Assembly: GCA_014695345.1 (NCBI GenBank)
Contig: JACJOC010000036.1
Coordinates: 1 to 64,000, forward strand
Source of the DNA: Cyanobacteria bacterium FACHB-471
GTDB taxonomy: Bacteria > Cyanobacteriota > Cyanobacteriia > Elainellales > Elainellaceae
Direction of reading: 5' to 3'
Length of the DNA stretch: 64,000 nucleotides
The position numbers were made by a program, and so were the translations under genes. The notes under the pieces were generated by a model. The model worked only from the letters and a program-made list of their open reading frames with translations, had not been told where the DNA came from and ran no database searches. Below are positions 16,316 through 42,632 of this stretch, in pieces; the first letter of the stretch is position 1, and each line of letters begins with the position of its first letter.

Positions 16316-17374
16316 TTAAAGTCGTCTGTTGATGATGAGCTCATAAGTGCAGAAAGCTGGTTTTTGTCTTTCAATCACAGCTTCTATTTCTTTTCGAAAG
16401 GATGGATTATCTACTAAATTGGGCTGCTCGCAGTGCAGGCGCACAATGAAATGATAGGCCCGTCCTCCACCCAAGATTGCCTTTTGACCGATCTCTGCTT
16501 TGCCAAACACCAATCCAGTCTCAGCGGGTTCCTCAATTGAAACATAAGGATCAGCTTCAGGAGCAGGTAAGGGGTCGATCGGTAAACCGAGGTAGAGACG
16601 CAAATAGAACCGCAAGCCCCAGCGAGTGCCATGCCAGCGGTAGAGCGTGATGGCATTTCGAATCAGGTAGCGCTGTTGTTTCAGGCTCCAGCGTGAATCA
16701 ATTTCCCAACCGACCCAATGTGCTAAAAAAGGCAGCAGCGCTTCTGGTGCCGTCAACGGATCGAGGTATGCCCACATTACATCCGTTGTTTGTACAACTG
16801 GATCAAAGGCTTGTTCAAAAATCGACAGAAACCGCCCCATAAAGTCGGTTTCTCGATAGATTGCAGGCAAAAAATTGAGGTAGGCGCACCAGGGATTGAT
16901 GTAGAAGTTGAAGCTATCGTAGCCAATTAAATGGTCTGATTCGTGAACAAAAATTTGGCTTTGATACTTGAGTTGTAGTTGCGATCGCCCCCTACTTAAT
17001 GCCTGCTGATTCTCAAAAAAGTCTTGTGGAACGGCTAAGCGATATCTGCGGCTCAAAATTTCACCAGGGGCAATTTCTCCCGATTCTTCCCAAGTCAACC
17101 GCTGGCGTTGTGTCACTAACTCGTTTGTGGTTTGGTCCGCCTCAAACCATGAGGTAGGAAAATCTCCCTCCATATCAAGCCGCCACTGGCGTGGGCGATC
17201 GCTCAAGTTTTGTAGCTCAACTTGAATTTCACCTGGTTCACTTGGATACAGCAAAAACGCTGAAGGACTAGCGGTATCTTGAGTGGCAAAGCTTACAGAT
17301 TCCGTAAACTGATAAGGACGAAAGGTTGGGGTAATTCGAACCGCCAGAGTTCGGCGGGGCAGGGCTTGGGTCAT
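16316..17374 (-). CDS. CIS baseplate protein, phage tail protein I (P2 gpI/Afp12-like)
   Basis: A 352-residue baseplate wedge protein. An N-terminal beta-rich domain (1-155) is followed by the tail-protein-I domain, recognised by YLNFLPAIYRETDFMGRFL, LDPLTAPEALLPFLAHWVGW and LYRWHGTRWGLRFYLRLYLG. In contractile systems this protein joins baseplate J-type wedges. It is the last gene of the long minus-strand CIS operon; a 111-base gap with a hairpin separates it from baseplate J. Its 3' end abuts an IS1 remnant, so the extreme C-terminus may have been altered. Confidence 0.88.
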   Translation of the reverse strand: MTQALPRRTLAVRITPTFRPYQFTESVSFATQDTASPSAFLLYPSEPGEIQVELQNLSDRPRQWRLDMEGDFPTSWFEADQTTNELVTQRQRLTWEESGEIAPGEILSRRYRLAVPQDFFENQQALSRGRSQLQLKYQSQIFVHESDHLIGYDSFNFYINPWCAYLNFLPAIYRETDFMGRFLSIFEQAFDPVVQTTDVMWAYLDPLTAPEALLPFLAHWVGWEIDSRWSLKQQRYLIRNAITLYRWHGTRWGLRFYLRLYLGLPIDPLPAPEADPYVSIEEPAETGLVFGKAEIGQKAILGGGRAYHFIVRLHCEQPNLVDNPSFRKEIEAVIERQKPAFCTYELIINRRL

Positions 17375-19764: not shown

Positions 19765-20166
19765 TTACTCTTCCGCTGGTGAGAGATAAAAAGGAAAAAC
19801 CAGACTCCGCAAGTCGCGAGTTTCTTTAGGTTGGTAAATAATTTGGATATCAACTTTTCCACGAATCGGATCGGGGTCTGTCCGCACTTCTCTGAGAATA
19901 ATGCGTGGCTCCCACATTTCCAATGCTTCTTCAATATGCAGGCGAATCAGCAGCAATGTCTGCACATTTAACGGTTCAAACGCAAGCTCAGACAAGCGTG
20001 AACCAAAGTCAGGACGATAAACTCGTTCGCCCAATTCTGTCCGCAGAATAATCAAAATGGATTCTTCTAAATTCGGCGCGGCTGAACTGAGTTGCAGGCT
20101 ACCCTGAACGTTGACGCGCAGGGGAAATGCAATACCAGCACCGATGTAGTTAGGTCCTTCGGGCAT
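19765..20166 (-). CDS. CIS baseplate wedge protein gp25-like (Afp9-like)
   Basis: A 133-residue gp25/lysozyme-like-fold protein that links the baseplate to the sheath. It contains the family core ESILIILRTELGERVYRPDF followed by GSRLSELAFEP; the region EERVYRPDFG is the conserved motif of W/gp25 homologues and lacks lysozyme catalysis. Length is normal. It is coupled to baseplate J (2 bases apart) and lies 86 bases after the YbjN-domain gene. Confidence 0.92.
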   Translation of the reverse strand: MPEGPNYIGAGIAFPLRVNVQGSLQLSSAAPNLEESILIILRTELGERVYRPDFGSRLSELAFEPLNVQTLLLIRLHIEEALEMWEPRIILREVRTDPDPIRGKVDIQIIYQPKETRDLRSLVFPFYLSPAEE

Positions 20167-26877: not shown

Positions 26878-27372
26878 TCAACCACCAATCACTACCGTTG
26901 GATATCCTTGCGTAATTGCATTGGGCGCATGAAGTCCTTCAAAGATTGTGTCGCCTGCTCGACAAGCGGGTAAACCGTTGATCAATACAGTATTGCTGCC
27001 TGTTACCACAACTCCTGGCGCAGGCGTGGGCAATAAGGAAGCACAAGCGTGAGTTGAAACACCACTGGTTGCTAAGGCTGCGATTGCGTTTGTAACTCTC
27101 GCAGTCTGTTCTATTTTTGTTCTCCCTTCATTAAACTTTGCGTCAGGTTCAGCAAGGGTTCCTTTTACTGCTTGGGTTGCTAGTTCTGCTTTGTAAATCT
27201 CTTCTTGTGCATCTTTTACAGTGTTCATCAAAGCTGCCAGTGCTGCTTTGGGAACACCTAACCAGGCAGGTTGATTACCAATGAAAACACTGGGGCTACA
27301 GGGTCCGCCCGTTAAAACTGGTGGTAAGGGGTGCGCTACTGCATCCCCAAGTCGTGCTGCAAATTGATTCAT
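26878..27372 (-). CDS. PAAR-like spike tip protein (Afp10-like)
   Basis: A 164-residue PAAR-type protein capping the spike. The N-terminal half-motif ARLGDAVAHPLPPVLTGGPC and the C-terminal GSNTVLINGLPACRAGDTIF with PTVVIGG form the split PAAR fold. They are separated by about 65 helical residues (MNTVKDAQEEIYKAELATQA), an insertion common in CIS versions. Conserved His/Cys positions could bind the tip metal. It lies between VgrG (14 bases upstream) and the toxin gene (56 bases), so the effector may attach to this tip. Confidence 0.85.
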   Translation of the reverse strand: MNQFAARLGDAVAHPLPPVLTGGPCSPSVFIGNQPAWLGVPKAALAALMNTVKDAQEEIYKAELATQAVKGTLAEPDAKFNEGRTKIEQTARVTNAIAALATSGVSTHACASLLPTPAPGVVVTGSNTVLINGLPACRAGDTIFEGLHAPNAITQGYPTVVIGG

Positions 27373-27386
27373 TGGTTTACTCCTGT

Positions 27387-29057
27387 TTAATTCAGCCTGA
27401 TAAAAGCACCTTTAATCGTAATTTCTCCGGTTGCGCTGATGTCGATATTGCCTTTTGCCTCAATTTTGAGATTTCCTGTTGAGCTAACGGTAACGCTGCC
27501 ATCACTGTCGTTGAGATGAAGTTTGTGCCCTCCATTTGTTTCAACGTAAACTCCTTTTTGGCGATCGCCATTATCTTCTTCTACAAATTGAATTTGATGC
27601 CCTGTGCGAGTTTTAAATGTTCGCAAACGAACTTTGCCATTTTGGACACTGTGTTTTACCTCAGTAGGCGGCGCATCTTTACCGTTCCAAACCCCGCCAA
27701 TAATGTAAGGACGATGGATATCTCCATGCTCAAATCCAACCAGGACTTCATCGTTGATTTCGGGTAAGCAATCAAATCCTCGGCGATCGCCTGCCCCAAT
27801 GCTAACGACTCGTGCCCAATTGCTGGTGTGATCTTCCGTTAACGTTGGCAACTTTACCTTGACTCGTCCCCATCCTTCTGGGTCTTCGTTATCGGTTACA
27901 ATGCCAACTAGGAGGGTTTCTCCGGGCGATCGCCTGGTTTGAGTCGAGAGTGCGGTGAGCAAATCTCCTTCCCTCAACCCACGCACACTAAATTCGGTAC
28001 TGTAAGCCCGTTCTTGATAAGAGTGGCGAGTTTCCGTGATGTAATACTTGCCGTCATACTGCCCCATACCCTCAAGCTTGACGACACGTCCGACTCGAAT
28101 TTGTGGATCTCCTTCAGCTTTTGCATCTGCCTGAACAAATTGTCCCTGTAGCTCATCACATAACGCTTGAGCCATGATGTCTGCCTCTTTAGGATTGAAG
28201 AAGGGGCGATCGACCACAACCAAAGTCGGTTTTTCGGGTTTACCGTTAAACTTGGTGCTGGTTTCGCTGCCTTTACCATTGTCTGTAGTTGTAATAATTT
28301 TTGCGGTTTCGGCAGTTGAGATAATGGGTTGCTTCTGGCTGTAGTCCCACGCTCTTACTTCCACTGATTTGACCTGCTCCGCAGTTGTCATGCGGACTCG
28401 AAAACTTCGTAAATTCTGTAGCCATTTCAGGCTTAATTCCTGTCCATCTGCTTTGGATTTGCGAAAGTTTAATTTGCCATTCTGCACAAATAGCTCAAAT
28501 CCAGTTCGAGCAGCACGCTCTCGCAGAAATTCCATGTTAGTCTGGTTTTCCTGAAACACATAGTCATGCGGAGAACCACTGCTGTCAATCGCATTCGTTT
28601 TAATACCAACTTCTGCGGCAATCTTTTTGACAATATCGCTATCGGTCATATTCTGAAAAGAACGGTTATGCCGCCCACGATGCAGACGGTGGGAGACATC
28701 ATAACCCCGCACAATAACTGGAGCCTGCGACCCTTCACTGAAATAGGTTTCGATCGCCGTAATTTCCCCTTCTAAAACGGTTCCTGGCTTCTCTTCGGAG
28801 GGGCTTTGCGATTCAGTGATACTAGAGCTGAAACCGAGCTTGAGTGTTTTACCAATTTGCAGCAAGTCTTTGTATCGCCAGGGTTTGTCATGCTCCTGTC
28901 CTGGAAAGTAGTCATTTTGAATAACCAGCATAAACATTCCCGGTCGATGTAGGCTTTCTTCGACACAAACTTGCAGAATGTCATCTAATAAATTTTGCGG
29001 TGCTTTTTCCCCATCAATTTCTAATGCAGGAAGAGCGCGATAGCCGACTGCTGCCAT
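27387..29057 (-). CDS. VgrG/gp5-gp27-like spike protein (Afp8-like)
   Basis: A 556-residue trimeric spike. A gp27-like hub half (about 1-370; DDILQVCVEESLHRPGMFML, FLRERAARTGFELFVQNGKL) is followed by the OB-fold (VGIVTDNEDPEGWGRVKVKL, WARVVSIGAGDRRGFDCLPE, DEVLVGFEHGD) and a C-terminal triple-stranded beta-helix seen in the repeat GNLKIEAKGNIDISATGEIT. No enzymatic extension follows. It carries the PAAR tip encoded next and plugs the tube end in the baseplate. Confidence 0.92.
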   Translation of the reverse strand: MAAVGYRALPALEIDGEKAPQNLLDDILQVCVEESLHRPGMFMLVIQNDYFPGQEHDKPWRYKDLLQIGKTLKLGFSSSITESQSPSEEKPGTVLEGEITAIETYFSEGSQAPVIVRGYDVSHRLHRGRHNRSFQNMTDSDIVKKIAAEVGIKTNAIDSSGSPHDYVFQENQTNMEFLRERAARTGFELFVQNGKLNFRKSKADGQELSLKWLQNLRSFRVRMTTAEQVKSVEVRAWDYSQKQPIISTAETAKIITTTDNGKGSETSTKFNGKPEKPTLVVVDRPFFNPKEADIMAQALCDELQGQFVQADAKAEGDPQIRVGRVVKLEGMGQYDGKYYITETRHSYQERAYSTEFSVRGLREGDLLTALSTQTRRSPGETLLVGIVTDNEDPEGWGRVKVKLPTLTEDHTSNWARVVSIGAGDRRGFDCLPEINDEVLVGFEHGDIHRPYIIGGVWNGKDAPPTEVKHSVQNGKVRLRTFKTRTGHQIQFVEEDNGDRQKGVYVETNGGHKLHLNDSDGSVTVSSTGNLKIEAKGNIDISATGEITIKGAFIRLN

Positions 29058-29069
29058 AACAACTGAACC

Positions 29070-29828
29070 CTACAAACTTGCTTTAAAATTTGCCTGCCCA
29101 CTAATCCGTGCCTGAAGGCTATCTTTGACGCGATCGATTCCATTTGCCAACATGTTTTGTCCTGTTGGAGATTCATCAATCTCTTTGAGAGCAAGGCTGT
29201 CAATTACAGCTCGAACGGGTGTTCCATCTGGCAGAAACATAGTGAGTTTATACGTCAATTTTTCAATAAAGCATTTTCGTAAATGCACTTGATCGCCCCA
29301 AACAAATCGATAGGTAGGTGTACGTTGATTTTGAGCATTACCTTGTCCACCACTCTGACTGTTTGGCTGCTGACTAAGAGAATTTGATAGACTATCCAAT
29401 GAGCTAGAAATTTGATCCAGTGGATTTGGAATATTTTGAAGCGGCACAGGTAACCCTTCTAAATTCAGCAGTGGCGCGGTGTGAGTACCAATCGGTCTGA
29501 CTGCTGCTCTAAACGCTTCAATGTACTCATCTACAACATTTTTACCCTCTTCATAGGTATCAAATACAATTTTGCTAATCGTCACCTTATACGCTTTTGT
29601 ATAAGAAAAACTTACCTTCGGCTGTTTCTTTTGCTCAGTACGCGCACCTGGATTTTCTGAAGTCTCCACAATTCCCTCAAACGTTAGTTCAGTCGGATTA
29701 AACATAAATCGAATTGGTGGAACGCCCCGCTCCCAGGGAATTAAAGTTGCTTTAACCAGAGGAGTATTACTCAAAGCCAGCTTAACTTGAGGAGTACCAT
29801 TTGAAAGTGAAGCATTAAGTAGAGCCAT
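29070..29828 (-). CDS. CIS baseplate hub/tube-connecting protein (Afp7-like)
   Basis: A 252-residue protein in the place of the LysM-bearing Afp7/gp53 connector. It contains RFMFNPTELTFEGIVET and VSFSYTKAYKVTISKIVFDT, then TYRFVWGDQVHLRKCFIEKL and MFLPDGTPVRAVIDSLALKE, the conserved core of this family. A Gly/Gln/Ser-rich insertion sits in the middle. A canonical C-terminal LysM is not obvious; the protein ends shortly after ISGQANFKASL. It lies 12 bases before the spike gene and probably joins tube and spike. Confidence 0.8.
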   Translation of the reverse strand: MALLNASLSNGTPQVKLALSNTPLVKATLIPWERGVPPIRFMFNPTELTFEGIVETSENPGARTEQKKQPKVSFSYTKAYKVTISKIVFDTYEEGKNVVDEYIEAFRAAVRPIGTHTAPLLNLEGLPVPLQNIPNPLDQISSSLDSLSNSLSQQPNSQSGGQGNAQNQRTPTYRFVWGDQVHLRKCFIEKLTYKLTMFLPDGTPVRAVIDSLALKEIDESPTGQNMLANGIDRVKDSLQARISGQANFKASL

Positions 29829-29862: not shown

Positions 29863-32460
29863 TTAGTGCAAGCGGCTTATCCGATATCCCGATCGCTCGT
29901 GTTCGATCGCCAATTTTTGTTGAATTTGACCGTAAACTTCACGAGTTAAAACTGATATGCTACTGTCCACTGAAGGATCATATGAAGGAGTTGGCGATCG
30001 CTCTCCAGTTTTGGTTGAATTTGATTTAATTTGAGCAGATGTTTCATAAACAGAAATAATGTTGCTTGACCAAATGGGATAGGCGATCGCGTGATAACCT
30101 GAACGCTCTTGATCAAGATCCATGCAGTGTCGCATTGCGTTATAGATGTGTTGAGCCAGCATCACAAGCTGTTGATCATCAACGGTTGATTTCTGCTGAT
30201 TTGCGCTGCCAACTTGTTCGTTCGGTTTCGCTTGAATTCTAGGAGAAATTAAGGTGACAGAATTATCAACAGAATTATTAGTAGCGCTCTCTTCGGCTTC
30301 AGTATTATCCTCGTAGGACAAATTGCTTGAAGAATGGGTGTTATCCGCTAATTCAGCTAAGCTTGACCACGAGCTAGATCTATCGTCAGCAGCGTTAAAC
30401 TTTTCAGCAGAGGGTTGTGGCTGAAATTCTGTTCGTTTTCGCCGAAGAGGAATAGGTTCAGCGATCGCATCCCTAGAGATTGATGAGTCTTTAATATCAG
30501 GGTTAGAAACCTCAGTGGATTTTGCTATCTCAAATGTCTCGGCTTGAGAGTAAGATGTAGAGTTTTCCCCTAGCAATTCTGCCAGGCTTGACCAAGAGGT
30601 TGGAGTTGCAGAAACATTGGATCTATTCTCATTCGATGCTTTTTCAGAACGCATTATTGATAATGAGCGATCGTCATTTTGTAAAGATTCTTCTGATATG
30701 TCTGAATCTTCCATAGAACTCATAGCCTGTAGCGTAGTTTCCGCGTGTTCTTGTAGCTGGAGTTGAATCGGAGAGATAAAATTCGATATTTGAGTGAGAG
30801 GCGTTAATGATCCTAAAGGCTTGAGTGAAGATAGAACATCATTGCTTTGCTCAATTGAAGCGTCAGTTAGAGGCGATTGCTCCTTACTTAATTTTTCTGG
30901 TTCTGTTGCAGTCTTCTCTTCAATTACCTCGACTGATTCAGATGGTAAAATTATCGGTTCATGGAGAAGAGTAGTTGAATCAGAAACTCTTTCTATAGAT
31001 GGTTGAATAGAGTTTAACTTTGAAGAATTATCTTCTGTTTCAGAAGTTATAGTATCTGATGAATTTGATGAACTAGACCATCCATCTGCTTCCGAATTGG
31101 CTGATTGTGCTTCTAATATTGGCTCCGATTCAGGTACTTCCAGAACCTCTTGTTGTTCAGTAGTTCTTGCTACTAAAGATTCTATAGATTCTATTTTTCT
31201 CTGTAATGGCTCTAAAGGATCCTGCGAAGTCAGTGGTGTAGTTTCTACATTTTCTACTTCAGAAATTGTTTTATCCGTTCTAACAGAGTTTGAAGCAAGC
31301 TCTAGAGATTTATCTATGAATGTATCCGTTGTATCTTTTGTAGAAGAATAATTATCCGTAGGTGTGTTTGTTATGTCTTCTTGAGTAGATGCTGAACGAC
31401 GCAGAACTATCTGAGCAGGATCTGTAGCTAACACCTCTTCTGTTTGAGGTTGTGACGGTTGCTCGATAACTTTGTCTTCTGGAATTGCGATCGCATCTGA
31501 AATAAAACTCTCTTTTGCAGTAGTTTCTAAGTATGGTTCAGCAGCCTGGACTATATCAGTAGAGAAAGCGATCGCTTCTCTTACTGGTTCTACAGGTGTA
31601 GTTTGAGATGAAGTATCGGGTGAATTGTTGGAAGCCCTTGTCTGTTTTTGAGAAGGAACTCTATCTGAAATAGTTGAGGATGTCTGGTTCTGTTCTAGCT
31701 GTACTGGTAAGGCTTCTGGTATAGCCTCTAAATTATTTGAACGTGTTGAAGTATGTTCGTCTTGAACTGATGCAGCAGGTTTGGTTGCTGAACTAATCTT
31801 TTCTCCAAGTTGGTCTTCATCATTCTGATCAGGAGATTGTACTTCAGCCGAATCTACAACAGCTTCTGATAGCAAAGGCTGTAAGGCAAGTGATTTTTTC
31901 TGAATTGGCTCTATTGGAGTTTGTTCTTCAAAGATACTTAAGTCTTCAGAAGAGTGAGTTTCTGTTGTTTCAAGTTTTTGAATTTGGCGATCGTTCTCCC
32001 CCGAAGTTGAGTTTTTACCTTCGAGAGGAGACAAGGAAATTTCATTTACTGCTGACGGTTGATCTAGTAGTACCTGCGGTGATTGATCTGAAGATTCTAA
32101 ATTGCTTGATTCTTTTGTTGCAAAAGTGTTTTTTGATTCTGATGAGGCTTGTTCAGAGGAGGATGAGGGTTCTTCTCGCAATTGAGCTATTGGCTGAATC
32201 CTTGCATCTGGCGAGTTCGATAAGTTGGAAGCAGAAGCAGATTCCCCTGGTTCCTCAGAGGCTGTTAGCTCAAAGAACGGATCTAACGGTGCTGTTTGTA
32301 AAAGCAGATTAAGAGGTGAAGGAGGCTGGAGCGGTTGAAAGTTTTGTCCCAACGGTTGAGCAAATTGACCAAGTGGCGGCAAAGTTTGCAGAAATTGGCT
32401 CTGTCCCAACGGTTTAAGTTGCAGGCGGTTAGTGCTAAAACCAAGCGGTAGCAATGACAT
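29863..32460 (-). CDS. very long disordered acidic CIS protein with duplicated C-terminal motif
   Basis: An 865-residue protein of unknown family. The N-terminus repeats PLGQ/PLG units (FLQTLPPLGQFAQPLGQNF). About 690 residues of Ser/Glu/Thr/Gln-rich, low-complexity sequence follow, predicted disordered. The C-terminus has two copies of a 22-residue motif: residues 768-789 (LAQHIYNAMRHCMDL...ERSGY) and 838-859 (LTREVYGQIQQKLAI...ERSGY). The 50-residue protein at 33077-33229 carries a related motif. Sitting between a tube gene and the hub gene, it might act as a tape-measure or tether, but that is only a suggestion. Confidence 0.6.
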   Translation of the reverse strand: MSLLPLGFSTNRLQLKPLGQSQFLQTLPPLGQFAQPLGQNFQPLQPPSPLNLLLQTAPLDPFFELTASEEPGESASASNLSNSPDARIQPIAQLREEPSSSSEQASSESKNTFATKESSNLESSDQSPQVLLDQPSAVNEISLSPLEGKNSTSGENDRQIQKLETTETHSSEDLSIFEEQTPIEPIQKKSLALQPLLSEAVVDSAEVQSPDQNDEDQLGEKISSATKPAASVQDEHTSTRSNNLEAIPEALPVQLEQNQTSSTISDRVPSQKQTRASNNSPDTSSQTTPVEPVREAIAFSTDIVQAAEPYLETTAKESFISDAIAIPEDKVIEQPSQPQTEEVLATDPAQIVLRRSASTQEDITNTPTDNYSSTKDTTDTFIDKSLELASNSVRTDKTISEVENVETTPLTSQDPLEPLQRKIESIESLVARTTEQQEVLEVPESEPILEAQSANSEADGWSSSSNSSDTITSETEDNSSKLNSIQPSIERVSDSTTLLHEPIILPSESVEVIEEKTATEPEKLSKEQSPLTDASIEQSNDVLSSLKPLGSLTPLTQISNFISPIQLQLQEHAETTLQAMSSMEDSDISEESLQNDDRSLSIMRSEKASNENRSNVSATPTSWSSLAELLGENSTSYSQAETFEIAKSTEVSNPDIKDSSISRDAIAEPIPLRRKRTEFQPQPSAEKFNAADDRSSSWSSLAELADNTHSSSNLSYEDNTEAEESATNNSVDNSVTLISPRIQAKPNEQVGSANQQKSTVDDQQLVMLAQHIYNAMRHCMDLDQERSGYHAIAYPIWSSNIISVYETSAQIKSNSTKTGERSPTPSYDPSVDSSISVLTREVYGQIQQKLAIEHERSGYRISRLH

Positions 32461-32495: not shown

Positions 32496-33077
32496 TTAAA
32501 GATTGAAGGGATTCACAGCATTGATGAGGTCACTACCAAGACTGCTGCCTGACGAACTGCCTGAAAAATAACCCAATTTATCTCGTCCAGACGTGAGATT
32601 GATCGCACCTCCTCCAGCAGATTTTTCAATCTTCAAACCTTCGTAGGCTAGCGACAGTTCTTCGATCGCAACTGTAGTGGAATTTGCTTGTAAGGAAGGG
32701 GCTTTCCAGCCAGTGGGAACGGCTCCAATTAGAGTCCAGCACTGCATAGTCTCTCCCGCTTGACTGAACAGCAAAATGTTAATGTTGCGCCGCTGTTTTG
32801 GAACTCCGCCTAAGATCTGGCTTGCCCAAGTCCAGAAGACTAGATCATCGGTAATGCCACGTTTTAGCGTAATGTCTGTAAATTCAGACTGCCCTAGTAA
32901 AATGCGCTGCTGGTTGTTGACACCACCTTCAAAGATTGCTTCTCGCTTAACTTTAACGCCTACTCCAGAACATTCGCTGAAGGATGCTGTAATTGCGCTT
33001 TCCATTTCCACATAAAAGCGGTTAGCTGTAACATAGTTAAGTTCGTAGCTAGCAGAACCATTGCTCGGACTTGCCAT
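32496..33077 (-). CDS. CIS tube protein (gp19/Afp5-like)
   Basis: A 193-residue T4 gp19-type tube protein. The core reads ANRFYVEMESAITASFSECS, GVGVKVKREAIFEGG, FTDITLKRGITDDLVFWTWA and CWTLIGAVPTGWKAPSLQ, the conserved pattern of contractile inner tubes. A Gly/Ser-rich tail (FSGSSSGSSLGSDL) is extra. It is separated by several genes from the two other tube paralogues and lies next to the hub genes, so it may be the tube-initiating ring (Afp5 position). Its start overlaps the stop of the 50-residue gene by one base (TAATG). Confidence 0.88.
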   Translation of the reverse strand: MASPSNGSASYELNYVTANRFYVEMESAITASFSECSGVGVKVKREAIFEGGVNNQQRILLGQSEFTDITLKRGITDDLVFWTWASQILGGVPKQRRNINILLFSQAGETMQCWTLIGAVPTGWKAPSLQANSTTVAIEELSLAYEGLKIEKSAGGGAINLTSGRDKLGYFSGSSSGSSLGSDLINAVNPFNL

Positions 33078-33229
33078 TAAAATAATCTCCTGGAAAAAGG
33101 ACAGCGATCGCGTTGATTTCGTAAATCTTGCAGCATAATCTCATAAACGCGATCGCTCAACTTTTGCAGCAATACTGGATCGCGTAATACCTGTTTTGCT
33201 AGTTTTGAAACCTCTTCAGAATCTTGCAT
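33077..33229 (-). CDS. 50-residue CIS-operon protein sharing the VY...ER motif
   Basis: Start ATG at 33229-33227, stop TAA at 33079-33077. The peptide begins MQDSEEVSKLAKQVLRDP and ends RDRCPFSRRLF. It is coupled on both sides: 9 bases after the pseudokinase gene and overlapping the tube ATG by one base, so it is very likely a real gene. Its segment LSDRVYEIMLQDL...RDRCPF matches the duplicated motif at the C-terminus of the 865-residue protein. No family is recognised. A small adaptor binding the same partner is the obvious hypothesis. Confidence 0.75.
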   Translation of the reverse strand: MQDSEEVSKLAKQVLRDPVLLQKLSDRVYEIMLQDLRNQRDRCPFSRRLF

Positions 33230-33238
33230 TAGCGTTGA

Positions 33239-35527
33239 TTAAGGTTGAGTACAGGGTTGTAAAGGAACTAAGCCTGCTTCACTCAGTAAACACTGTCCTT
33301 CATCTGTTGTGAGTAACTTAATAAAGTTTTCTGCGGCAATAGGAGACTCTTTTCGATACACAACAACAAGTTTGAAAGCTAATGGATAGTATCCTGATTC
33401 AAATGCCTCAATATTGGGACGGTATCTGCCCTTGCTGCACAAATCTGTTGTAGGTTGAATGGGTCGATTGTTGTCTTGAATAAGTGCCTGAACTTTCTGG
33501 CGTTCTCCTATTGCTAAAGGATAAACAGCACACTGCCCTGATAAACTACTGAATAGTCCAAAGCCAATTCCCAATTCCTGTTTTTCGTTTTGTGTTCCCT
33601 TTAAGATTACTCCAAAAATATTTGCTGTTCTTTCTTGATTAGTAAAGTTCTCGTTATGGAATTCATCATGTTGCTGCTGTCGAACATCCTCGGGTGACTC
33701 CCGAAGTTGCCCGCCCTTAAGAACAATTTGTTGAAATAGTTTTATTGCTTGATCCTGATCCACAAATGGGACATAGAGTTTGACTTGCCAAGTTTCTAAA
33801 CCATCAGGCGAATTCCAGTTTCCATTTACATAGATTTCGCGCAGTTCATCAAAGGATAAGTCTCCGTCGAGTTGGCTTGGAATGTTTTGTCCTTGTGCAG
33901 GATCATTAAAGGCAACAAATACGGCGACCCCATCGTAAGCAACAGGCTCCAGCGCTAAATCAGCAGGAATTTTTTCAATAGTTGTTGTCAGAATAAAATC
34001 TACATCTCCCGCTCGTAGCTGTTCGATCGCTCCCTCATGAGAATTCCCTGATGATTCAAAAATATTGGGTTTAGGAGGATTAGATCCAGCCTGTCGCACT
34101 GCTATCTGCTCAATCAGTTTCTCTCCCTCTGCAACCAATCCAGTTTGGTCGAGCACATTGCTCCAACTACTGCCCTGAACATAAACATAGTTCATCGGTT
34201 CGTCTGAAACCTGGACATCACTTAGTTTAGATGTGGTCATTTCTTCAATAGTTGAGCGACTGATCCCAAACAGCCACACACCTCCCGATGAGATCATTCC
34301 AAATAAAATTCCCAACAACAGTGCTGTAAGCGGCTGTCGAATAATAAACTCTGAGTCATCCTCTTCTGCTTCAGCGATCGCGAGTGCAGAGTCAGCAGAC
34401 AGCAATTTAGGTGCTTTCAGTAGCGCTTCACGAGCAGCGGCGGCACTGGTAAAAATGGGTCGCGATAGACCAACAAGCTGATAGATAAATTGCTTCAGCG
34501 ATCGATCGCTAACAGCGTCCCAAGGCTGTTTAAGCTCAGGAGGCAGCAACCGGGAATCCAACGATTGTCCTGAGTTAGGAGCGATCGCTGTACCAGTCAA
34601 AAGGCTAAAACCAATGTAACCTAACGCTTTTAGGTCTTCAACAATAGAAGCACGAGATGGCGATTGAGTTTCAGATTGAAATAAGTCTTCCCAAGTTTCC
34701 AAAATGATGTAGATGAAGAACTGGGGATCACTCACGCCAACTGGAGAGTCTTGAAGTGCAAACAGCACGTTATCCAGCTTGAGATTGCCATACGGTTGCT
34801 TAACCTCGCCTGTGGCAAACCGCACCTTTTGGCTGTGAAGAAACAAGAGTGTCTGTAATACTTGCTTGAATAGTTGCCGCACAAAATTAGCGGGCATTGC
34901 TCCCACATGCTCTAAGTAGCCTTCGAGCGTGGTGCTATTGGCGATCGCCTCAGTCACAACATAGCAGCGATAGTCTTGGGATGATATATCAGTATCTAAC
35001 GGTGTAATAACGCGAAACTCTGGTTTGTTGTTGCTGCTAAAGCTGATTTTTGTTAATTGCTCAAATTTAACTTTGCGTTGTTTAAGCTCTGTCGAGTCAA
35101 GGCGTTCTGAAAGAAAATATTCTTTAATCAAAACGGGTTGACCATCCGGCATTTGCATACCTTCATACAGGCGCATCCAGTCTTCTTCCTTCAGGAGCTG
35201 TCCGAGCTGGTATCGTCCCCGACGACCCATGATCCCGTTGACTGGACGAGGAGGTGATTGCAAAAGGGACGAAGTAGGTTCGACTGCAATCGCAGTGGCA
35301 GTATTTGAACTAGCTTCAGGTACGATCGCTTCTGGCGATTGGAAGAACCAATTGGGCTTAGGTGGTGTGGAACGAGTCGGGATTCTATCAGGCACCCTAA
35401 TCTGCTCCAGTTTCTCTTGTCCAAAGCGTCTAGCTGTTTGTCTAGCAACCTCTTCAGGATGACGAAAAAGAGTCAGCCATTCTCTTGTCCGACTCCTGAC
35501 AACATTAATTAATTCTGTGAGTTGCAC
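33239..35527 (-). CDS. membrane pseudokinase fused to PstS-like binding domain, in CIS operon
   Basis: A 762-residue protein. Residues about 95-385 are a protein-kinase fold starting GRYQLGQLLKEEDWMRLYEG, with the Lys strand PVLIKEYF. The catalytic loop reads YGNLKLDNVLF instead of HRDLKxxN and no DFG is visible, so it is a pseudokinase. One membrane segment (LLLGILFGMISSGGVWLFG) lies near 400-420. The outer part is a type 2 periplasmic binding protein like PstS (EPVAYDGVAVFVAFNDP, LSFDELREIYVNG, LLTTDEGQCLLSEAGLVPLQ). Wedged between tail genes with 7- and 9-base gaps, it may sense a ligand across the membrane or anchor the machine; that is inferred. Confidence 0.8.
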   Translation of the reverse strand: MQLTELINVVRSRTREWLTLFRHPEEVARQTARRFGQEKLEQIRVPDRIPTRSTPPKPNWFFQSPEAIVPEASSNTATAIAVEPTSSLLQSPPRPVNGIMGRRGRYQLGQLLKEEDWMRLYEGMQMPDGQPVLIKEYFLSERLDSTELKQRKVKFEQLTKISFSSNNKPEFRVITPLDTDISSQDYRCYVVTEAIANSTTLEGYLEHVGAMPANFVRQLFKQVLQTLLFLHSQKVRFATGEVKQPYGNLKLDNVLFALQDSPVGVSDPQFFIYIILETWEDLFQSETQSPSRASIVEDLKALGYIGFSLLTGTAIAPNSGQSLDSRLLPPELKQPWDAVSDRSLKQFIYQLVGLSRPIFTSAAAAREALLKAPKLLSADSALAIAEAEEDDSEFIIRQPLTALLLGILFGMISSGGVWLFGISRSTIEEMTTSKLSDVQVSDEPMNYVYVQGSSWSNVLDQTGLVAEGEKLIEQIAVRQAGSNPPKPNIFESSGNSHEGAIEQLRAGDVDFILTTTIEKIPADLALEPVAYDGVAVFVAFNDPAQGQNIPSQLDGDLSFDELREIYVNGNWNSPDGLETWQVKLYVPFVDQDQAIKLFQQIVLKGGQLRESPEDVRQQQHDEFHNENFTNQERTANIFGVILKGTQNEKQELGIGFGLFSSLSGQCAVYPLAIGERQKVQALIQDNNRPIQPTTDLCSKGRYRPNIEAFESGYYPLAFKLVVVYRKESPIAAENFIKLLTTDEGQCLLSEAGLVPLQPCTQP

Positions 35528-35534
35528 TGCTACC

Positions 35535-35906
35535 TCATCCGGGGCTAATCGTTCCTTGCAGTTCTTCTGATTTCAAGGCAGACTGCAAATTTTGAGCTGT
35601 TGTATTATCTGATTCATCTTCTAACTCATTAATTTGTAAGTAGAAGCGATGGAGATAGTTTAAGTCACAGGCAAATAAACCTTCAATAATCGTGGGCGTG
35701 ATTTCCTCTAACGCCCCCAAACAGGTAATGACGCGAGCTAGAACAATCACTGTTGAATACGCTGGATTTGCTTTAACACGTGGATCGCGAAGGGGCACGA
35801 TTTCATCGATCGCCTTTGCTAGTCGCATCATGCCCCGACGATGTAAATTGCCGTGAGCATCGAGGTAGCCCTTGGGAAGGGTAAACTCAAATTCGGTTTG
35901 CAGCAT
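35535..35906 (-). CDS. tail assembly chaperone-like protein
   Basis: A 123-residue protein: FEFTLPKGYLDAHGNLHRRG, LRDPRVKANPAYSTVIVLAR, LGALEEITPTIIEGLFACDL and LHRFYLQINE. The order polar strand, conserved charged loop and helical region that picks tube or tape-measure partners resembles phage tail assembly chaperones (Mu gp41/P2 E type). It is separated from the preceding tube gene by 3 bases and from the pseudokinase by 7. It is present in most CIS operons at this place. Exact role is inferred. Confidence 0.65.
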   Translation of the reverse strand: MLQTEFEFTLPKGYLDAHGNLHRRGMMRLAKAIDEIVPLRDPRVKANPAYSTVIVLARVITCLGALEEITPTIIEGLFACDLNYLHRFYLQINELEDESDNTTAQNLQSALKSEELQGTISPG

Positions 35907-35909
35907 GAG

Positions 35910-36401
35910 TTACTGTTGTCGGCTAAAGAGTTCGATCGCTAATTCCATTTCTTCAACTTCGATGTCATTACTGCTGGCGTTGAAGTCGGATACAACATAG
36001 CTAATAGGCCATGCGCTTCTAAACTGAAATATTGCCTGTGGGTGTTCTCCCTGGTCGTAGATCGTCAGCGACCCGTCTCGCAGTTGGTTTGCCCAATCTC
36101 CCCGCTGCACTGCTTCAAACCATCGCCAAAGAGTGGGCGATCGCGTCATTCCTCGACGTAGCGTCACATTGTTAGTTTTGACATTGCCTGGAACTTTGGT
36201 GCGAACAACCTGACCTGATTTTGCTTTCCCCCATTGCTGGGGTGTCACTTCACAAATTTCTACAACATCCTGAGTGCGCTTAAAGCCTTTACACTCCATG
36301 AAGTAAGCGTCGACCGGGTCTTGACTGCCGTCCAATTTCAGTTCGATATAAAAACGACACGTTGTGAGGATTTCTGGAAAATTCTCAATCAGATTTGGCA
36401 T
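35910..36401 (-). CDS. CIS tube-family protein 2 (gp19-like)
   Basis: A 163-residue gp19-type protein: CRFYIELKLDGSQDPVDAYF, MECKGFKRTQDVVEICEVTP, NVKTNNVTLRRGMTRSPTLW and ISYVVSDFNASSNDIEVEEM. The order of strands and the NVTLRRG motif are those of the inner tube. It lies between the main tube gene and the chaperone-like gene. In related systems one paralogue forms the tube and others form its first layers; which does what here cannot be told. Confidence 0.87.
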   Translation of the reverse strand: MPNLIENFPEILTTCRFYIELKLDGSQDPVDAYFMECKGFKRTQDVVEICEVTPQQWGKAKSGQVVRTKVPGNVKTNNVTLRRGMTRSPTLWRWFEAVQRGDWANQLRDGSLTIYDQGEHPQAIFQFRSAWPISYVVSDFNASSNDIEVEEMELAIELFSRQQ

Positions 36402-36443: not shown

Positions 36444-36908
36444 TTACTTCTCTCGCACGATTCCTTCGTGAACCAAGGTAATAGTTTCATTTGCCACATC
36501 GTTTGCACCCGCCTCCAGCTTTGGACCTTCATACTTAGTAGGATAAGCGTTGACTAGGTTCCAACGAGCTTTTTCGTCTCCGGCCTGGTCATAGACGGTA
36601 ATAGAAGCCCCCTTGCGATTAGCTGACCAGTCAGATCTTCCGCCTGAGTTTTTGTTACAGCTATCGTACCAACCGTAAAGGTCCTTGTTGGTTGTGGCAA
36701 CAACCTTGACAGTAACAGGAGAAAACTTGGTGCGGGTTGGCGCTGCCTGCCGCAAATTAACGGCTTGTTTGCCTGAACCCAGCACCTTATCGCCACCCGC
36801 TGCTGGAGTTTCTGAGGTAAGTCCAGACACTTCTAAGATCTGTTTATCAGTAATGCCATCTGCTTCAAAATAGAACCGACAACTGACTAAAATTTCATCG
36901 TCTGCCAT
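36444..36908 (-). CDS. CIS tube-family protein 1 (gp19-like, probable main tube)
   Basis: A 154-residue gp19-type tube protein right after the sheath: SCRFYFEADGITDKQILEVS, GLTSETPAAGG, FSPVTVKVVATTNKDLYGWY and NLVNAYPTKYEGPKLEAGAN. Its place directly downstream of the sheath, as in Afp/PVC clusters, makes it the likeliest major tube subunit. The usual TLKRG is replaced by TVKVVAT, which is unusual. A 159-base gap with a small hairpin separates it from the sheath gene, possibly allowing separate expression. Confidence 0.87.
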   Translation of the reverse strand: MADDEILVSCRFYFEADGITDKQILEVSGLTSETPAAGGDKVLGSGKQAVNLRQAAPTRTKFSPVTVKVVATTNKDLYGWYDSCNKNSGGRSDWSANRKGASITVYDQAGDEKARWNLVNAYPTKYEGPKLEAGANDVANETITLVHEGIVREK

Positions 36909-37067: not shown

Positions 37068-38807
37068 TTACTCCATCTGTCCATTCCACTGGCTGACGCG
37101 GAATACCACAAATTCTGCAGGTCGTACTGGACGAACACCCACTTCGATATAGAGGCGACCTAACATCATTGTTTCTTCAGTGTTCAAGGTTTCATCGCAC
37201 TTAACGTAAAACGCTTGCTCGGGAGAACTCCCAAACAACGCGCCTTCTCGCCACAGTCGTTCCAAGAAGTTGCTTACCGTACGACGAACTCGTGCCCACA
37301 AGTCCTGATCGTTGGGTTCAAAGACAACCCATTGTGTTCCCTCTTCGATCGATTTTTCGATGTAGCTCATTAAGCGCCGCACGTTGATGTAACGCCACTC
37401 TGTTTTTTCTTTTTCAACTAGCGTTCGCGCTCCCCAAACCTTGATCCCACGATTGGGAAAGTTGCGGATGCAGTTGATTCCCATTGGGTTAAGCAATTCC
37501 TGTTCGCGGAAGTTTACCTCATAAGACAATCCCAAAACACCACGAGGAGTTTCATTGGCGGGAGCTTTGTGAATGCCACGGGTTTCATCGTTTCTTGCCC
37601 ACACTCCCATCATGTGACCGCAAGGTGGAACAAAAATAGACTTTCCTTCTTTGGCTGGATTCGCGACTTTAATCCAGGGATAGTAGAGGGCAGCAAACAT
37701 CGATCGCCTGTTAATATTGTTAAGCCACTCTGCAACCTGCTGGGGATTTTTGATAGGGCGATCGCCCACAGGTGGCGGTGCATCTAAAACAACCATGCGG
37801 TTGGGTGGATTAGGAGCTGCATTTTCGCAAAGGCTAATCATTAAATCAACAAAATAGGCGAGTTTATCGTCATCCAACACGGGAGAACCATCAGGATTTT
37901 TCTCCTCGTAAAGGCGCATCAAATCAGGAAACGCCAGCATGTTGATATCATCCACCTCAAATGTTCCTTGAATTCCTGTCTGACGGTTGCGAACTCCAGT
38001 AGCATGACGCACAACCCGTTCCGTTGTCGGCACAATGATAGGCGCACTAACTTCATACGTTCCATATGCGGGACGGAGTGAAAGCGGCAATCGTTGGCGT
38101 TGACTTTCAGGGATGATGTTGGTGATATCGATGTACTGCGATCGCTCTAGTGCAGCAGGCGCAAACCCTCCCATTGCTTTGACAGCAGGATCGCCTAAAT
38201 CTGCTTCAATGACGGGTGCCTGAGGATTCATCGTCAAGTTGAAATACTTTTCCAGTTCTTCGCTTTCCTGGCGGAAAATGGTTACATCAAAAAACTCTCC
38301 TGGAAGCGGTGCTGGAGCATCAGAATCATCATTTTCGTCAAAGGGTGGCTCAGTTTCAGGCTTAGAAATGTTGACATACAGCCGCCCATCTTCGGCGTGC
38401 TCGGGTTTAAGGGAAAACTGCAAGGAGTTTGTCTTGCGCGTTGTTTTTATTTCCAGCGGTACTGGCTGGCGATCGCCTGACTCCAACGTTTCACTTGGTT
38501 TTGGTAGTTGGGTTCCCAGACTTACTACCCAGCAGCGTCCACCACCATTGAGGAACCAGCCTTGCACTGCAAACGGAAGATAGAATCTTTCTGGAGAAAA
38601 TCCTGTTGAGCCCTCTTTACTGAAGTACCGCAAATACTGATCCCAGCTTGTCACCAACATTGGTTTGAACTGTTCAGCACCATTACGAATGGCTTCTGTA
38701 AATCCAACAAATCCACCCACGTTGGTTGGCACCCCCTCAATTGGGCGACTGCCGCGATCGACTTCCTCAACATAGACACCCGGAGCAAAATAATCGAGCC
38801 TCGCCAT
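37068..38807 (-). CDS. contractile sheath protein
   Basis: A 579-residue tail sheath protein, first gene of the minus-strand CIS operon. The N-terminus YFAPGVYVEEVDRGSRPIEG and VPTNVGGFVGFTE is the sheath linker signature. The C-terminal part has GHMMGVWARNDETRGIHKAP, NPMGINCIRNFPNRGIKVWG, ARTLVEKEKTEWRYINVRRL and FEPNDQDLWARVRRTVSNFL, strongly conserved in contractile sheaths. The middle (about 100-260) is an extra surface domain. It polymerises around the tube and drives its ejection. Confidence 0.96.
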   Translation of the reverse strand: MARLDYFAPGVYVEEVDRGSRPIEGVPTNVGGFVGFTEAIRNGAEQFKPMLVTSWDQYLRYFSKEGSTGFSPERFYLPFAVQGWFLNGGGRCWVVSLGTQLPKPSETLESGDRQPVPLEIKTTRKTNSLQFSLKPEHAEDGRLYVNISKPETEPPFDENDDSDAPAPLPGEFFDVTIFRQESEELEKYFNLTMNPQAPVIEADLGDPAVKAMGGFAPAALERSQYIDITNIIPESQRQRLPLSLRPAYGTYEVSAPIIVPTTERVVRHATGVRNRQTGIQGTFEVDDINMLAFPDLMRLYEEKNPDGSPVLDDDKLAYFVDLMISLCENAAPNPPNRMVVLDAPPPVGDRPIKNPQQVAEWLNNINRRSMFAALYYPWIKVANPAKEGKSIFVPPCGHMMGVWARNDETRGIHKAPANETPRGVLGLSYEVNFREQELLNPMGINCIRNFPNRGIKVWGARTLVEKEKTEWRYINVRRLMSYIEKSIEEGTQWVVFEPNDQDLWARVRRTVSNFLERLWREGALFGSSPEQAFYVKCDETLNTEETMMLGRLYIEVGVRPVRPAEFVVFRVSQWNGQME

Positions 38808-39362: not shown

Positions 39363-40670
39363 ATGAGTAATTATTTGGCGATCGCAACGGTCACAGCTAC
39401 ACTGCAACGCATTTTGCAATCGGCGCTACAGATTGACGTTGCTGGGGCGAGAGTGACAACAGTTCGACCAGATGCGTCAGGCAGCGGCACGCCTGAAGTT
39501 GGGGTCAACGTTTTTATGTATCAAGTGCTGCCAAATCCAGCATGGCGGAATTCTGATTTACGCAATCGCCGCCCAAAAGGAGAGTTGAGCAAACAGGCGC
39601 AAGCAGGCATTGACCTTTATTATTTAATGACCTTTTATGGCAATGAGGTAGAGCTAGAACCGCAGCGCTTGCTGGGCTGTACACTACGCACGTTAGTTGA
39701 TCAACCAATTCTCACGCCCACTATGCTGCGCGACACCATCAACAACCCCACCTTCAGCTATTTGGCTGGCTCGACGCTAGCAGAACAGGTTGAACAGGTG
39801 ACTCTGGTGCCTACACCAATGAACACCGAAGAGTTGTCAAAAATCTGGTCGGTATTTTTTCAAACGCCTTACGTGCTGTCGTTTGCCTATCAAGGAAGCA
39901 CCATTCTGATTGAAGGCAGCAAACCTGGAAAACGAGCATTGCCATTGCGGAGCAGCCAATTTTTTGTCACATCTAAACAGCCTGTGATTAAAGACATTGA
40001 GTCTGATGATGGAATAAATCAACCAATCGGACTTGACAGTACGGTTACGATTACAGGTAAACAACTCCGCAGCAGTCATCCCCGAATCTTGGCAAAGGTA
40101 AGAATTGGGGATGCTCAAATTACGCCTCAAGAGGTCAGCGATACACAGGTTAAAGTTGACCTGTCGCAGATTGCAGAATCAGAAAAACGTTTGTTGAGAG
40201 CCGGAGTACAAAGCCTGCAAGTTTTGCATCCACTGCCAACTCAAGTTGCGTCTGATTCTGATTTAACAACTGCTGATCTGGAACGAGCGGTCGGATCAAA
40301 CGTGCTGCCTGTCGTTGTTTATCCCACCATAGTTGATGTTAGCTCAACGAATACACGAAGCAATGGTGATGAACTGTATTCTGCGATCGCTACGGTGCAA
40401 GTCGATGTAATGGTTGCTCCTGAACAACGAGCTTATTTGTTGTTAAACGAGCGTGTCCTTCGCAATCCTGCTGCTTATGTATTTGGAGCGCGATCGCGTT
40501 CCGAAAGTCAGAATACGCTGACTTTTATCGTTCACGAAGTGAAAGCTGGAACCTATCTGGTGCGCGTTCAAATTGACAATGCTGAGAGTAAATTAACAGT
40601 TGACCCGGATGATGAAAGTCCAACGTTTGATCAGTACACTGAACCTACGATCGAAATTCGATCAACATAA
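39363..40670 (+). CDS. CIS tube-terminating cap protein (DUF4255/Pvc16-like)
   Basis: A 435-residue protein. Residues 1-185 are a DUF4255 domain (ATVTATLQRILQSALQIDVA, VNVFMYQVLPNPAWRNSDLR, GIDLYYLMTFYGNEVELEPQ), the cap that ends tube and sheath in Afp16/Pvc16. The C-terminal half contains Ig-like beta domains (IGLDSTVTITGKQL, ILAKVRIGDAQITPQEV), an extension beyond the short caps. It starts the plus-strand operon and is followed 12 bases later by the AAA+ ATPase, as in other CIS loci. Confidence 0.9.
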   Translation: MSNYLAIATVTATLQRILQSALQIDVAGARVTTVRPDASGSGTPEVGVNVFMYQVLPNPAWRNSDLRNRRPKGELSKQAQAGIDLYYLMTFYGNEVELEPQRLLGCTLRTLVDQPILTPTMLRDTINNPTFSYLAGSTLAEQVEQVTLVPTPMNTEELSKIWSVFFQTPYVLSFAYQGSTILIEGSKPGKRALPLRSSQFFVTSKQPVIKDIESDDGINQPIGLDSTVTITGKQLRSSHPRILAKVRIGDAQITPQEVSDTQVKVDLSQIAESEKRLLRAGVQSLQVLHPLPTQVASDSDLTTADLERAVGSNVLPVVVYPTIVDVSSTNTRSNGDELYSAIATVQVDVMVAPEQRAYLLLNERVLRNPAAYVFGARSRSESQNTLTFIVHEVKAGTYLVRVQIDNAESKLTVDPDDESPTFDQYTEPTIEIRST

Positions 40671-40682
40671 GATTTAAATGCT

Positions 40683-42632
40683 ATGACGTTTACCCTAGAA
40701 AATCAGCGAGAAGATGAGTTAGAAGCAAACCGTCATGACCTGATGAGTGCGATCGCTCATCTTCACAAGGTTTTAGAACAGCGGCTTGAAGCGACTGCAA
40801 TTTCTTCTTGCCCCACGCTCAATCGACTCTGCATCCAATTTAGACTGTCTGAGTTTGAGCGAAACGTGCTGCTATTGTGTGCAGCAATGGAACTGGATGT
40901 GAGTTTTGCCAACCTTTGTGCTGAAATCCAGGGCGATCGACAAGCCTATCCCACTTTCAATCTGGCGATGACAGCGTTTGCAGAACCGCATTGGGGCGCA
41001 GTATTGCCCGATCATCCGTTGCGGCACTGGCGGCTCATTGAAGTGGGTGCAGGTCAAACGCTAATGTTGAGTCCGCTACGAATTGATGAGCGAATTTTGC
41101 ACTACTTGGTCGGGCTACACTCGCTTGATGAACGATTGAAAGGGATGATTCAACCTGTGTTGACCCAGGATAAACTTGTGCCGTCTCATCAGCAGATTGC
41201 AGAGCAACTGGTTCGCGTTTGGTCGCAGCAGAGCGCTTCTCCAATCGTTCAGCTTTGGGGAAGCGATGGTATGAGCCAGCAGGCGATAGCTGCTGCCGCT
41301 TGTCGTCTTGCCCGATGGAGCCTCTACACGCTGCCCGCTCAAGCGCTTCCTACCGCCATTAGCGACCTCAGTAAGTTGCTGTTGCTGTGGGAGCGAGAAG
41401 CAATGTTGCATCCGAGTGCGCTGCTGTTGGATTGTAGCGCGATCGACACGACCGATACTAACCGCTCCCAAGCGATCGCCTACTGGATTGACACGACCAA
41501 CACTCCGCTAATCATCAGCAGCCGAGAACGTCAGCAAATTCAGCAACGCCCTTTCATCACCATTGAAGTCTATCCCCCCACCAAATCTGAACAGCGTACT
41601 CTCTGGCAGCAAACTCTAGGCTCAGCTGCCCCAACCCTAAATGGACATATCGAAAAACTCGTCACTCAATTCACACTAAACCCGTTCACTATCCGCACCG
41701 TCTGTACCGAAGCTCTCACCTCATCCCCATCCTCCCCATCTTCCCTCCCCTCCTCATCCTCCCCTCCTCCTGCTCCCTTCCCTCAACTCTGGGACTCCTG
41801 CCGCGCTCAAGCACGTCCCCGACTAGATGATTTGGCGCAACGAATTGACGCGATCGCCAGTTGGGATGACCTCGTGCTGCCTCAAAAAGAAAAGCAAGTG
41901 TTACAGAGCATCGCAGCTCATGTGAGACAGCGAGAAACGGTTTATGAAACCTGGGGATTTGCTAGCAAAAGCGGACGAGGATTGGGGATCAGTGCGCTAT
42001 TTGCTGGAGCCAGCGGTACAGGAAAAACGATGTCGGCAGAAGTTTTGGCGCTAGAGCTGCAATTAGATTTGTATCGTATTGATCTCAGTTCGGTAGTTAG
42101 CAAATACATTGGTGAAACTGAAAAGAACTTGCGAAAGGTGTTTGATGCTGCCGAAGCAGGCACAACGATTTTGCTGTTTGATGAAGCCGATGCTTTATTT
42201 GGTAAACGCAGTGAGGTGAAAGATTCCCACGATCGCTACGCCAACATGGAGGTGAGTTATCTGCTGCAACGTATGGAAGCGTATCGAGGACTGGCAATCT
42301 TAACCACCAACTTGAAAGATGCGATCGACCCTGCTTTCTTACGTCGCCTGCGATTTATCGTCAAGTTTCCCTTTCCCGATTTGGCACAGCGTGAAGACAT
42401 CTGGCGACGCATTTTTCCGCCGCAAATTCCGCTGGCAAACCTTGATTTTGCAAAACTTGCTCGCTTGAATGTCTCTGGCGGAAACATCCGCAACATTGCC
42501 CTTAACGCGGCATTTTTAGCAGCCGATGCTGAAGAACCTGTCAGCATGAAACACCTACTGGAGGCATCTCGAAGCGAATATATCAAGCTAGAACGATCGC
42601 TTACGGATGCTGAAGTTAAAGGCTGGGTGTGA
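40683..42632 (+). CDS. CIS-associated AAA+ ATPase (Afp15/Pvc15-like)
   Basis: A 649-residue ATPase. The N-terminal 330 residues are a degenerate, mainly helical region. A Ser/Pro-rich linker (about 343-362; SSPSSPSSLPSSSSPPPAP) leads to the AAA+ module with Walker A GASGTGKTMSAEVL, Walker B ILLFDEADALFG, the sensor LAILTTNLKDAIDPAF and Arg-finger context RRLRFIVKFPFPD. Pvc15/Afp15 homologues help load or fold effectors rather than recycle the sheath. It is placed directly before a DUF4157 effector gene, which supports that role. Confidence 0.92.
   Translation: MTFTLENQREDELEANRHDLMSAIAHLHKVLEQRLEATAISSCPTLNRLCIQFRLSEFERNVLLLCAAMELDVSFANLCAEIQGDRQAYPTFNLAMTAFAEPHWGAVLPDHPLRHWRLIEVGAGQTLMLSPLRIDERILHYLVGLHSLDERLKGMIQPVLTQDKLVPSHQQIAEQLVRVWSQQSASPIVQLWGSDGMSQQAIAAAACRLARWSLYTLPAQALPTAISDLSKLLLLWEREAMLHPSALLLDCSAIDTTDTNRSQAIAYWIDTTNTPLIISSRERQQIQQRPFITIEVYPPTKSEQRTLWQQTLGSAAPTLNGHIEKLVTQFTLNPFTIRTVCTEALTSSPSSPSSLPSSSSPPPAPFPQLWDSCRAQARPRLDDLAQRIDAIASWDDLVLPQKEKQVLQSIAAHVRQRETVYETWGFASKSGRGLGISALFAGASGTGKTMSAEVLALELQLDLYRIDLSSVVSKYIGETEKNLRKVFDAAEAGTTILLFDEADALFGKRSEVKDSHDRYANMEVSYLLQRMEAYRGLAILTTNLKDAIDPAFLRRLRFIVKFPFPDLAQREDIWRRIFPPQIPLANLDFAKLARLNVSGGNIRNIALNAAFLAADAEEPVSMKHLLEASRSEYIKLERSLTDAEVKGWV

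Follow-up and report, generated by a model that had tools for sequence, protein, structure and literature searches.

The CIS locus and the fusion gene

The window analysed here, a stretch of 64,000 nucleotides from Cyanobacteria bacterium FACHB-471 (contig JACJOC010000036.1, positions 1 to 64,000), carries the genes of a contractile injection machine (CIS). Among its tube genes lies a gene that fuses a pseudokinase, a single transmembrane (TM) helix and a PstS-type periplasmic-binding-protein (PBP) domain. The genes of the locus are as follows.

16316-17374 (-): Tail_P2_I baseplate protein
17486-19762 (-): Baseplate J-like (Cis11-like) protein, closest to Streptomyces 9gtp (PDB comparison)
19765-20166 (-): gp25-like baseplate protein
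26878-27372 (-): PAAR tip (Pfam)
27387-29057 (-): baseplate hub/spike, GPD + gpV (Pfam)
29070-29828 (-): CIS_tube family protein, Cis7-like (Pfam)
32496-33077 (-): tail tube protein 3, gp19 family (Pfam)
33077-33229 (-): conserved 50-aa gene between the fusion gene and tube 3, 9-base gap to the fusion gene
33239-35527 (-): pseudokinase-TM-PstS-type PBP fusion gene, 762 aa (ORF, Pfam, AlphaFold2 and fold search)
35535-35906 (-): conserved 123-aa CIS-locus gene upstream of the fusion gene, 7-base gap, no Pfam match
35910-36401 (-): tail tube protein 2, gp19 family (Pfam)
36444-36908 (-): tail tube protein 1, gp19 family (Pfam)
37068-38807 (-): contractile sheath, closest to the Streptomyces CIS sheath (Pfam, PDB comparison)
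39363-40670 (+): Pvc16-type cap protein
40683-42632 (+): AAA+ ATPase of the CIS locus

The fusion gene starts with GTG and encodes 762 aa with no internal stops. The gaps of 7 and 9 bases that the earlier note gave are right, with the precision that the neighbour across the 9-base gap is the 50-aa ORF; both neighbours are conserved CIS-locus genes, and the closest tube gene is 161 bases off. The 50-aa gene is an unnamed conserved CIS gene with no Pfam match (about 46-70 aa in homologous loci, motif LSDRVYxLM..DLRxQRDR); in many loci it separates the fusion gene from a tube gene. Of the products of the structural genes in this CIS operon, the fusion protein alone is predicted to be an integral membrane protein.

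Two eCIS_core (DUF4157) genes are also present in the window: one (22385-26821, -) encodes a cargo-type protein of 1478 aa in which residues 1032-1050 form a strongly hydrophobic segment, and the second lies at 42743-44614. In the fusion protein itself, Pfam detects no eCIS_core domain. The gene at 29863-32460 (-), flanked by tube 3 and the Cis7-like gene, encodes an 865-aa protein that no Pfam family matches above cutoff; homologous loci yielded very few relatives of it.

Compared with the PDB, the window's sheath matches best 8bky/9gtp and 8bl4/9gts (about 1e-108 and 1e-105); of these, 9gtp and 9gts come from the S. coelicolor CIS. The Cis11-like protein matches 9gtp at 1e-92. Since both proteins are closest to the S. 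coelicolor structures, the machine in the window is, judged from sequence, a CIS of the Streptomyces, cytoplasmic type. Membership in the thylakoid-anchored Anabaena type (All3325/All3317) is ruled out by the sheath (8e-52 vs 1e-108) and by Cis11 (0.03 vs 1e-92).

Domain layout and topology of the fusion protein

The whole-length AlphaFold2 model of the fusion protein has a mean pLDDT of 82.6, and a disordered linker (residues 46-89) separates the N-terminal helical pair from the pseudokinase domain. The parts of the protein and its diagnostic residues are listed below.

35402-35524 (-): N-terminal helical pair, residues 2-42 (AlphaFold2 model)
34412-35236 (-): pseudokinase domain, residues 98-372 (AlphaFold2, fold search, family profile)
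35123-35125 (-): beta-3 Lys135 of VLIK, retained (alignment of 79 relatives)
34784-34792 (-): YGN replacing HRD, residues 246-248 (alignment of 79)
34691-34711 (-): DFG-equivalent YIILETW, residues 273-279, Asp lost (alignment of 79)
34271-34333 (-): single TM helix, residues about 399-419 (hydrophobicity, model)
33257-34195 (-): PstS-type PBP fold, residues 445-757, SGT motif lost (Pfam, own model)
33530-33532 (-): Cys666, invariant in 79/79, possible disulfide with Cys697 (alignment)
33437-33439 (-): Cys697, invariant in 79/79 (alignment)

The kinase match is below threshold in sequence (Pfam Pkinase, 17.6 bits against a cutoff of 31.7) and clear in structure: a Foldseek search of the model against the PDB returns the WNK1/WNK3 and PknB kinases (E about 1e-10 to 1e-9), and a profile built from the 79 relatives matches both kinases and PstS proteins. 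Among these 79 full-length or near-full-length aligned sequences, the catalytic Asp of HRD is found in none; HGN takes its place in 69, and other letters in the remainder. The kinase fold with HRD changed to YGN and no DFG, proposed from the window's letters, is thus confirmed in both respects, and a functional kinase site, sought across the 79 relatives, is present in none. An active Hanks-type Ser/Thr kinase is rejected: the fold is present, but the HRD Asp is missing in 79/79, and the window protein also lacks the DFG Asp. The beta-3 Lys is retained in 62/79 and an Asp at the DFG position in 74/79 (DLA-type), and because most relatives keep both, nucleotide binding appears possible in many members of the family. 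The most degraded kinases belong to the operon-embedded clade that includes the window protein, where the DFG-position Asp is lost in 4/11, vs 1/68 elsewhere. At about 30% identity, the 79 relatives still have uninterrupted reading frames, which argues that the fusion protein is kept and is not decaying.

The C-terminal domain matches PBP_like_2 above the Pfam cutoff (E 2.9e-6), and the family profile matches PstS structures at 2.6e-11. This part was modelled separately, since kinases swamped the fold search of the whole model; alone, it has a pLDDT of 87.8 and matches PstS-type proteins (4q8r, E 5e-12; 1twy, TM score 0.71). The SGT loop of PstS ligates phosphate; it is absent from the fusion protein, in which the aligned stretch is YVPFVDQDQAIKLF. 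The fold of the PstS-like domain named in the earlier note is therefore upheld by Pfam, profile and model, while its phosphate-binding character is not: phosphate is unlikely as the ligand because the SGT motif is lost, which also leaves a Pst-type phosphate sensor unsupported. PstS-type proteins (4q8r, 1twy and Sll0540, 9l8j) share the fold, but the domain described here is tethered by a TM helix, lacks SGT, and has its own conserved motif, QCxxYPL, together with two invariant Cys.

The one membrane segment claimed for the protein is borne out by a single predicted TM helix (~399-419), the only strongly hydrophobic segment in the sequence, and the 79 aligned relatives likewise have one TM as a rule. 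Across the family, Lys/Arg residues are richer on the N-terminal side of the helix in 45 members and on the opposite side in 11, with 23 ties; the window protein (1 on the N side vs 2) does not follow this positive-inside trend. Because of the N-flank excess in the family and the two invariant Cys in the C-terminal domain, the pseudokinase part is predicted to be cytosolic and the PBP part to lie outside the membrane.

Genomic context and co-occurrence with the sheath lineage

In the window-type arrangement the gene order is sheath, tube, tube, 123-aa gene, fusion gene, 50-aa gene and tube 3. This order is nearly confined to one clade (11/13 rows together, SH-aLRT 100, 2 label changes on the tree). 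Elsewhere, the fusion gene is divergent beside the sheath gene, directly upstream of tube 3, or alone, and 25/79 of the aligned genes have no recognised CIS gene nearby. Embedding in a CIS structural operon, as first described, is accordingly a property mainly of the subclade to which the window protein belongs, and does not extend to the divergent and unlinked relatives. A 4-Cys, zinc-ribbon-like N-terminal motif is present in 48/68 relatives outside the operon-embedded clade and in none within it, the window protein included.

In a Nostocales-type clade, an FHA-domain gene directly follows the fusion gene (12 loci, some with overlapping genes), a LuxR-type response regulator gene precedes it (9 loci), and a histidine kinase gene occurs in Brasilonema. 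Loci L040, L046, L142, L131 and L193 exemplify this arrangement, and the pseudokinase-FHA gene pair of this clade recalls MviN-FhaA and YukC-YukB. In six loci with an unlinked fusion gene (L079, L080, L082, L086, L087 and L088), the next gene encodes a transporter of two-partner secretion (ShlB/POTRA). Judged by their titles, the 80 named loci taken from the genome collection belong to cyanobacteria, and the same contexts recur in them.

The survey covered 390 cyanobacterial genomes of the same class as the window. Strong matches to the fusion gene occur in 103, and full-length relatives in about 100; three of the 103 (G115, G251 and G270) rest on kinase-only matches of 363-412 aa. In genus g84 (G115, G197, G211, G251, G270 and G288) there are relatives of about 363-415 aa that consist of the kinase part and lack the PBP domain. 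The Pvc16 cap is present in 98 of the 103 gene-positive genomes, and 55 cap-positive genomes lack the gene.

The window-type sheath lineage, defined by strong matches to a window-type sheath profile, is present in 99 genomes. The fusion gene is found in 94 of these; among 52 genomes whose CIS sheaths are all of other kinds, 4 have it (odds ratio 226). Across the whole set of 390 genomes, the association of gene and sheath lineage has an odds ratio of 589 and a p of 9e-73, a value uncorrected for kinship and inflated by it. Within the window's own family, 13 genomes have both, none the gene only, 1 the sheath only and 22 neither (p 6e-9); within four of its genera, the gene and the sheath come and go together. 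In 23 genomes, the roughly 8.5 kb to either side of the fusion gene contain no recognised CIS gene; 20 of these genomes carry the window-type sheath lineage elsewhere. This persistence of co-occurrence where linkage is broken argues for a functional tie between the gene and the CIS. The rule is not absolute: the complete genome G184 has the sheath lineage, by a partial sheath match only, without a full-length fusion gene. Conservation across cyanobacterial CIS loci, which the earlier note had put forward as a check, is thus found: the gene is not missing from homologous loci (94/99 sheath-lineage genomes). A pure passenger gene is rejected on the same tracking (94/99; 13/0/1/22 in the family).

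Comparison with known membrane partners and pseudokinases

In S. coelicolor, both CIS contraction inside the cell and the death that stress induces depend on the bitopic protein CisA (SCO4242; PMC12237407). It has a largely unstructured cytosolic part, one TM and an extracytoplasmic C domain likened by the authors to periplasmic substrate-binding domains, and was not found in purified Streptomyces CIS particles (PMC12237407). The fusion protein resembles CisA in its predicted order (N part, one TM, C-terminal outside domain), in belonging to the same CIS lineage and in being encoded with the CIS. It differs in having a pseudokinase where the cytosolic part of CisA is largely unstructured, and in its place in the operon. 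CisA-like candidates in Streptomyces plasmid CIS loci (L190:18524-19633, L191:18628-20382 and L192:18441-20834) have zinc ribbons, a low-complexity, disordered-looking linker, a TM helix and a C-terminal F5/8-C-type domain; a zinc-ribbon N-terminus is shared by these candidates and most fusion relatives outside the operon-embedded clade. An hhalign comparison of A1 with a Streptomyces plasmid candidate (not S. coelicolor CisA itself) gave a homology probability of 0.7%. A search of the window's genome for the CisA-type C-terminal family (PF25302) found no match, with its controls silent too.

EssB/YukC of type VII secretion consists of a cytosolic pseudokinase, a single TM and an outside domain, and its pseudokinase contacts an FHA domain (PMC9600267); it sets a precedent for such a layout serving as a functional component of a secretion machine. 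The predicted layout of the fusion protein is the same, with a tie to its machine that we infer from co-occurrence. In contrast, the outside domain is a PBP rather than all-helical, the machine is a CIS rather than type VII secretion, and the hosts of EssB/YukC are Firmicutes; EssB/YukC is not among the sequence or fold matches listed for the fusion protein. PpkA is a membrane kinase that, in a threonine phosphorylation pathway with Fha1, exerts post-translational control of the T6SS (PMC10482370). The parallel lies in a membrane protein with a kinase domain and a contractile machine, with an FHA gene adjoining in one clade here; PpkA is an active kinase, whereas the fusion family lacks the catalytic Asp in 79/79. 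The ActPs3 pseudokinase of mycobacterial MviN recruits FhaA (PMC12599244), so that MviN is likewise a membrane pseudokinase, working by recruitment of an FHA protein, but it has a carbohydrate-binding domain and a cell-wall role. The thylakoid-anchored CIS of Anabaena involves Cis12, Cis13 and Cis19, with Cis13 anchoring via a TM helix (PMC8894136). This system is cyanobacterial and membrane-held, but belongs to another sheath/Cis11 lineage and is anchored by tail-fibre and baseplate parts; no kinase is mentioned in its description (PMC8894136).

No description of a CIS pseudokinase or kinase component was found in the open-access literature searched. The words periplasmic and substrate-binding are absent from a 2025 review of bacterial pseudokinase families, and the only kinases that an eCIS survey mentions near the loci are histidine kinases. 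Database records name the relatives 'serine/threonine protein kinase' or 'substrate-binding domain-containing protein', which masks the fusion. The original remark that no described CIS component has this architecture therefore needs qualifying: CisA has a similar layout (PMC12237407), and what was not found described is a component built from a pseudokinase and a PBP.

Proposed role and alternatives

We favour, at somewhat better than even confidence, the view that the fusion protein is a dedicated membrane dock or trigger partner of the cyanobacterial branch of Streptomyces-type cytoplasmic CISs. In this model, the dead kinase would serve as a protein-binding scaffold rather than an enzyme, and would bind the CIS in the cytosol, at the baseplate or close to it, either directly or via a partner. 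The PBP-type domain outside the membrane would bind a ligand or an envelope component, and a change at this domain, or plain docking, would position or release the particle for contraction at the membrane. The fusion protein would thereby do for cyanobacterial CISs, with other domains, what CisA does for the Streptomyces CIS. A CisA-like role is suggested by the shared order of parts, the position as the only predicted integral membrane protein among the window's structural CIS genes, and the common CIS lineage; the simplest reading would be a membrane partner built independently of CisA. Against a membrane dock or trigger stand the lack of detectable homology to CisA-type proteins, the F5/8-C-type ends of the plasmid candidates and the different operon place. 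The 25/79 genes without a nearby CIS gene, G184, and the window protein's positive-inside count of 1 vs 2 also weigh against it. A more specific sequence of events, in which ligand binding by the PBP domain is relayed through the TM helix to the dead kinase and the CIS fires at the membrane, lysing the producer or signalling from it, is a tentative proposal that we would put below even. The transmembrane sensor or anchor suggested in the earlier note is thus the best-supported reading, with its coupling to the machine, ligand binding and topology as predicted elements.

The FHA and response regulator neighbours also fit signalling. A regulator of CIS expression or assembly, in which the outside domain senses a signal and FHA and two-component partners phosphorylate or bind the dead kinase, is possible but rather unlikely: the FHA (12 loci), LuxR-type (9 loci) and histidine kinase (Brasilonema) genes adjoin in the Nostocales-type clade, and there are precedents in PpkA-Fha1 on the T6SS (PMC10482370) and in MviN recruiting FhaA (PMC12599244), but the operon-embedded clade, including the window, has no FHA neighbour, and its fusion gene is co-directional between conserved CIS genes. 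The place among the tube genes in the window clade, and the TM anchoring of Cis13 (PMC8894136), could instead point to a built-in particle component (baseplate or cap) that crosses the membrane, like a tail-fibre replacement or Anabaena Cis13. We regard this as improbable, given that the gene is often unlinked or divergent, that CisA is absent from purified particles (PMC12237407), and that the domains are unlike known structural tail proteins. An effector, an immunity protein or a passenger without a role in the machine is very improbable; CIS loci do carry cargo, and eCIS_core (DUF4157) cargo genes occur close to some of the relatives from outside the window clade, but the fusion protein has no eCIS_core match, has a TM helix and tracks the sheath lineage. 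Lowest of all we place an ordinary receptor kinase or phosphate sensor, which the kinase-like and PstS-like folds might suggest, and which is hardly compatible with the loss of the catalytic Asp (0/79) and of SGT, and with occurrence alongside the CIS lineage.

Implications

A membrane partner of a cytoplasmic-type CIS is already known in CisA; what is new is a candidate CIS membrane partner made from a pseudokinase and a PBP. In the literature searched, CisA is the sole factor in this lineage shown to act in how cytoplasmic CISs find the membrane and are triggered to fire, and in Streptomyces only. In the cyanobacteria, a phylum for which CIS-linked cell death has already been proposed, a lineage-wide partner whose ligand-binding domain can be recognised would offer direct access to the trigger. 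With it, the use of pseudokinases as scaffolds would also reach beyond type VII secretion to contractile machines. If firing is indeed gated by the PBP domain, the fusion protein would represent a receptor-gated switch with an origin separate from that of CisA, within one and the same CIS lineage.
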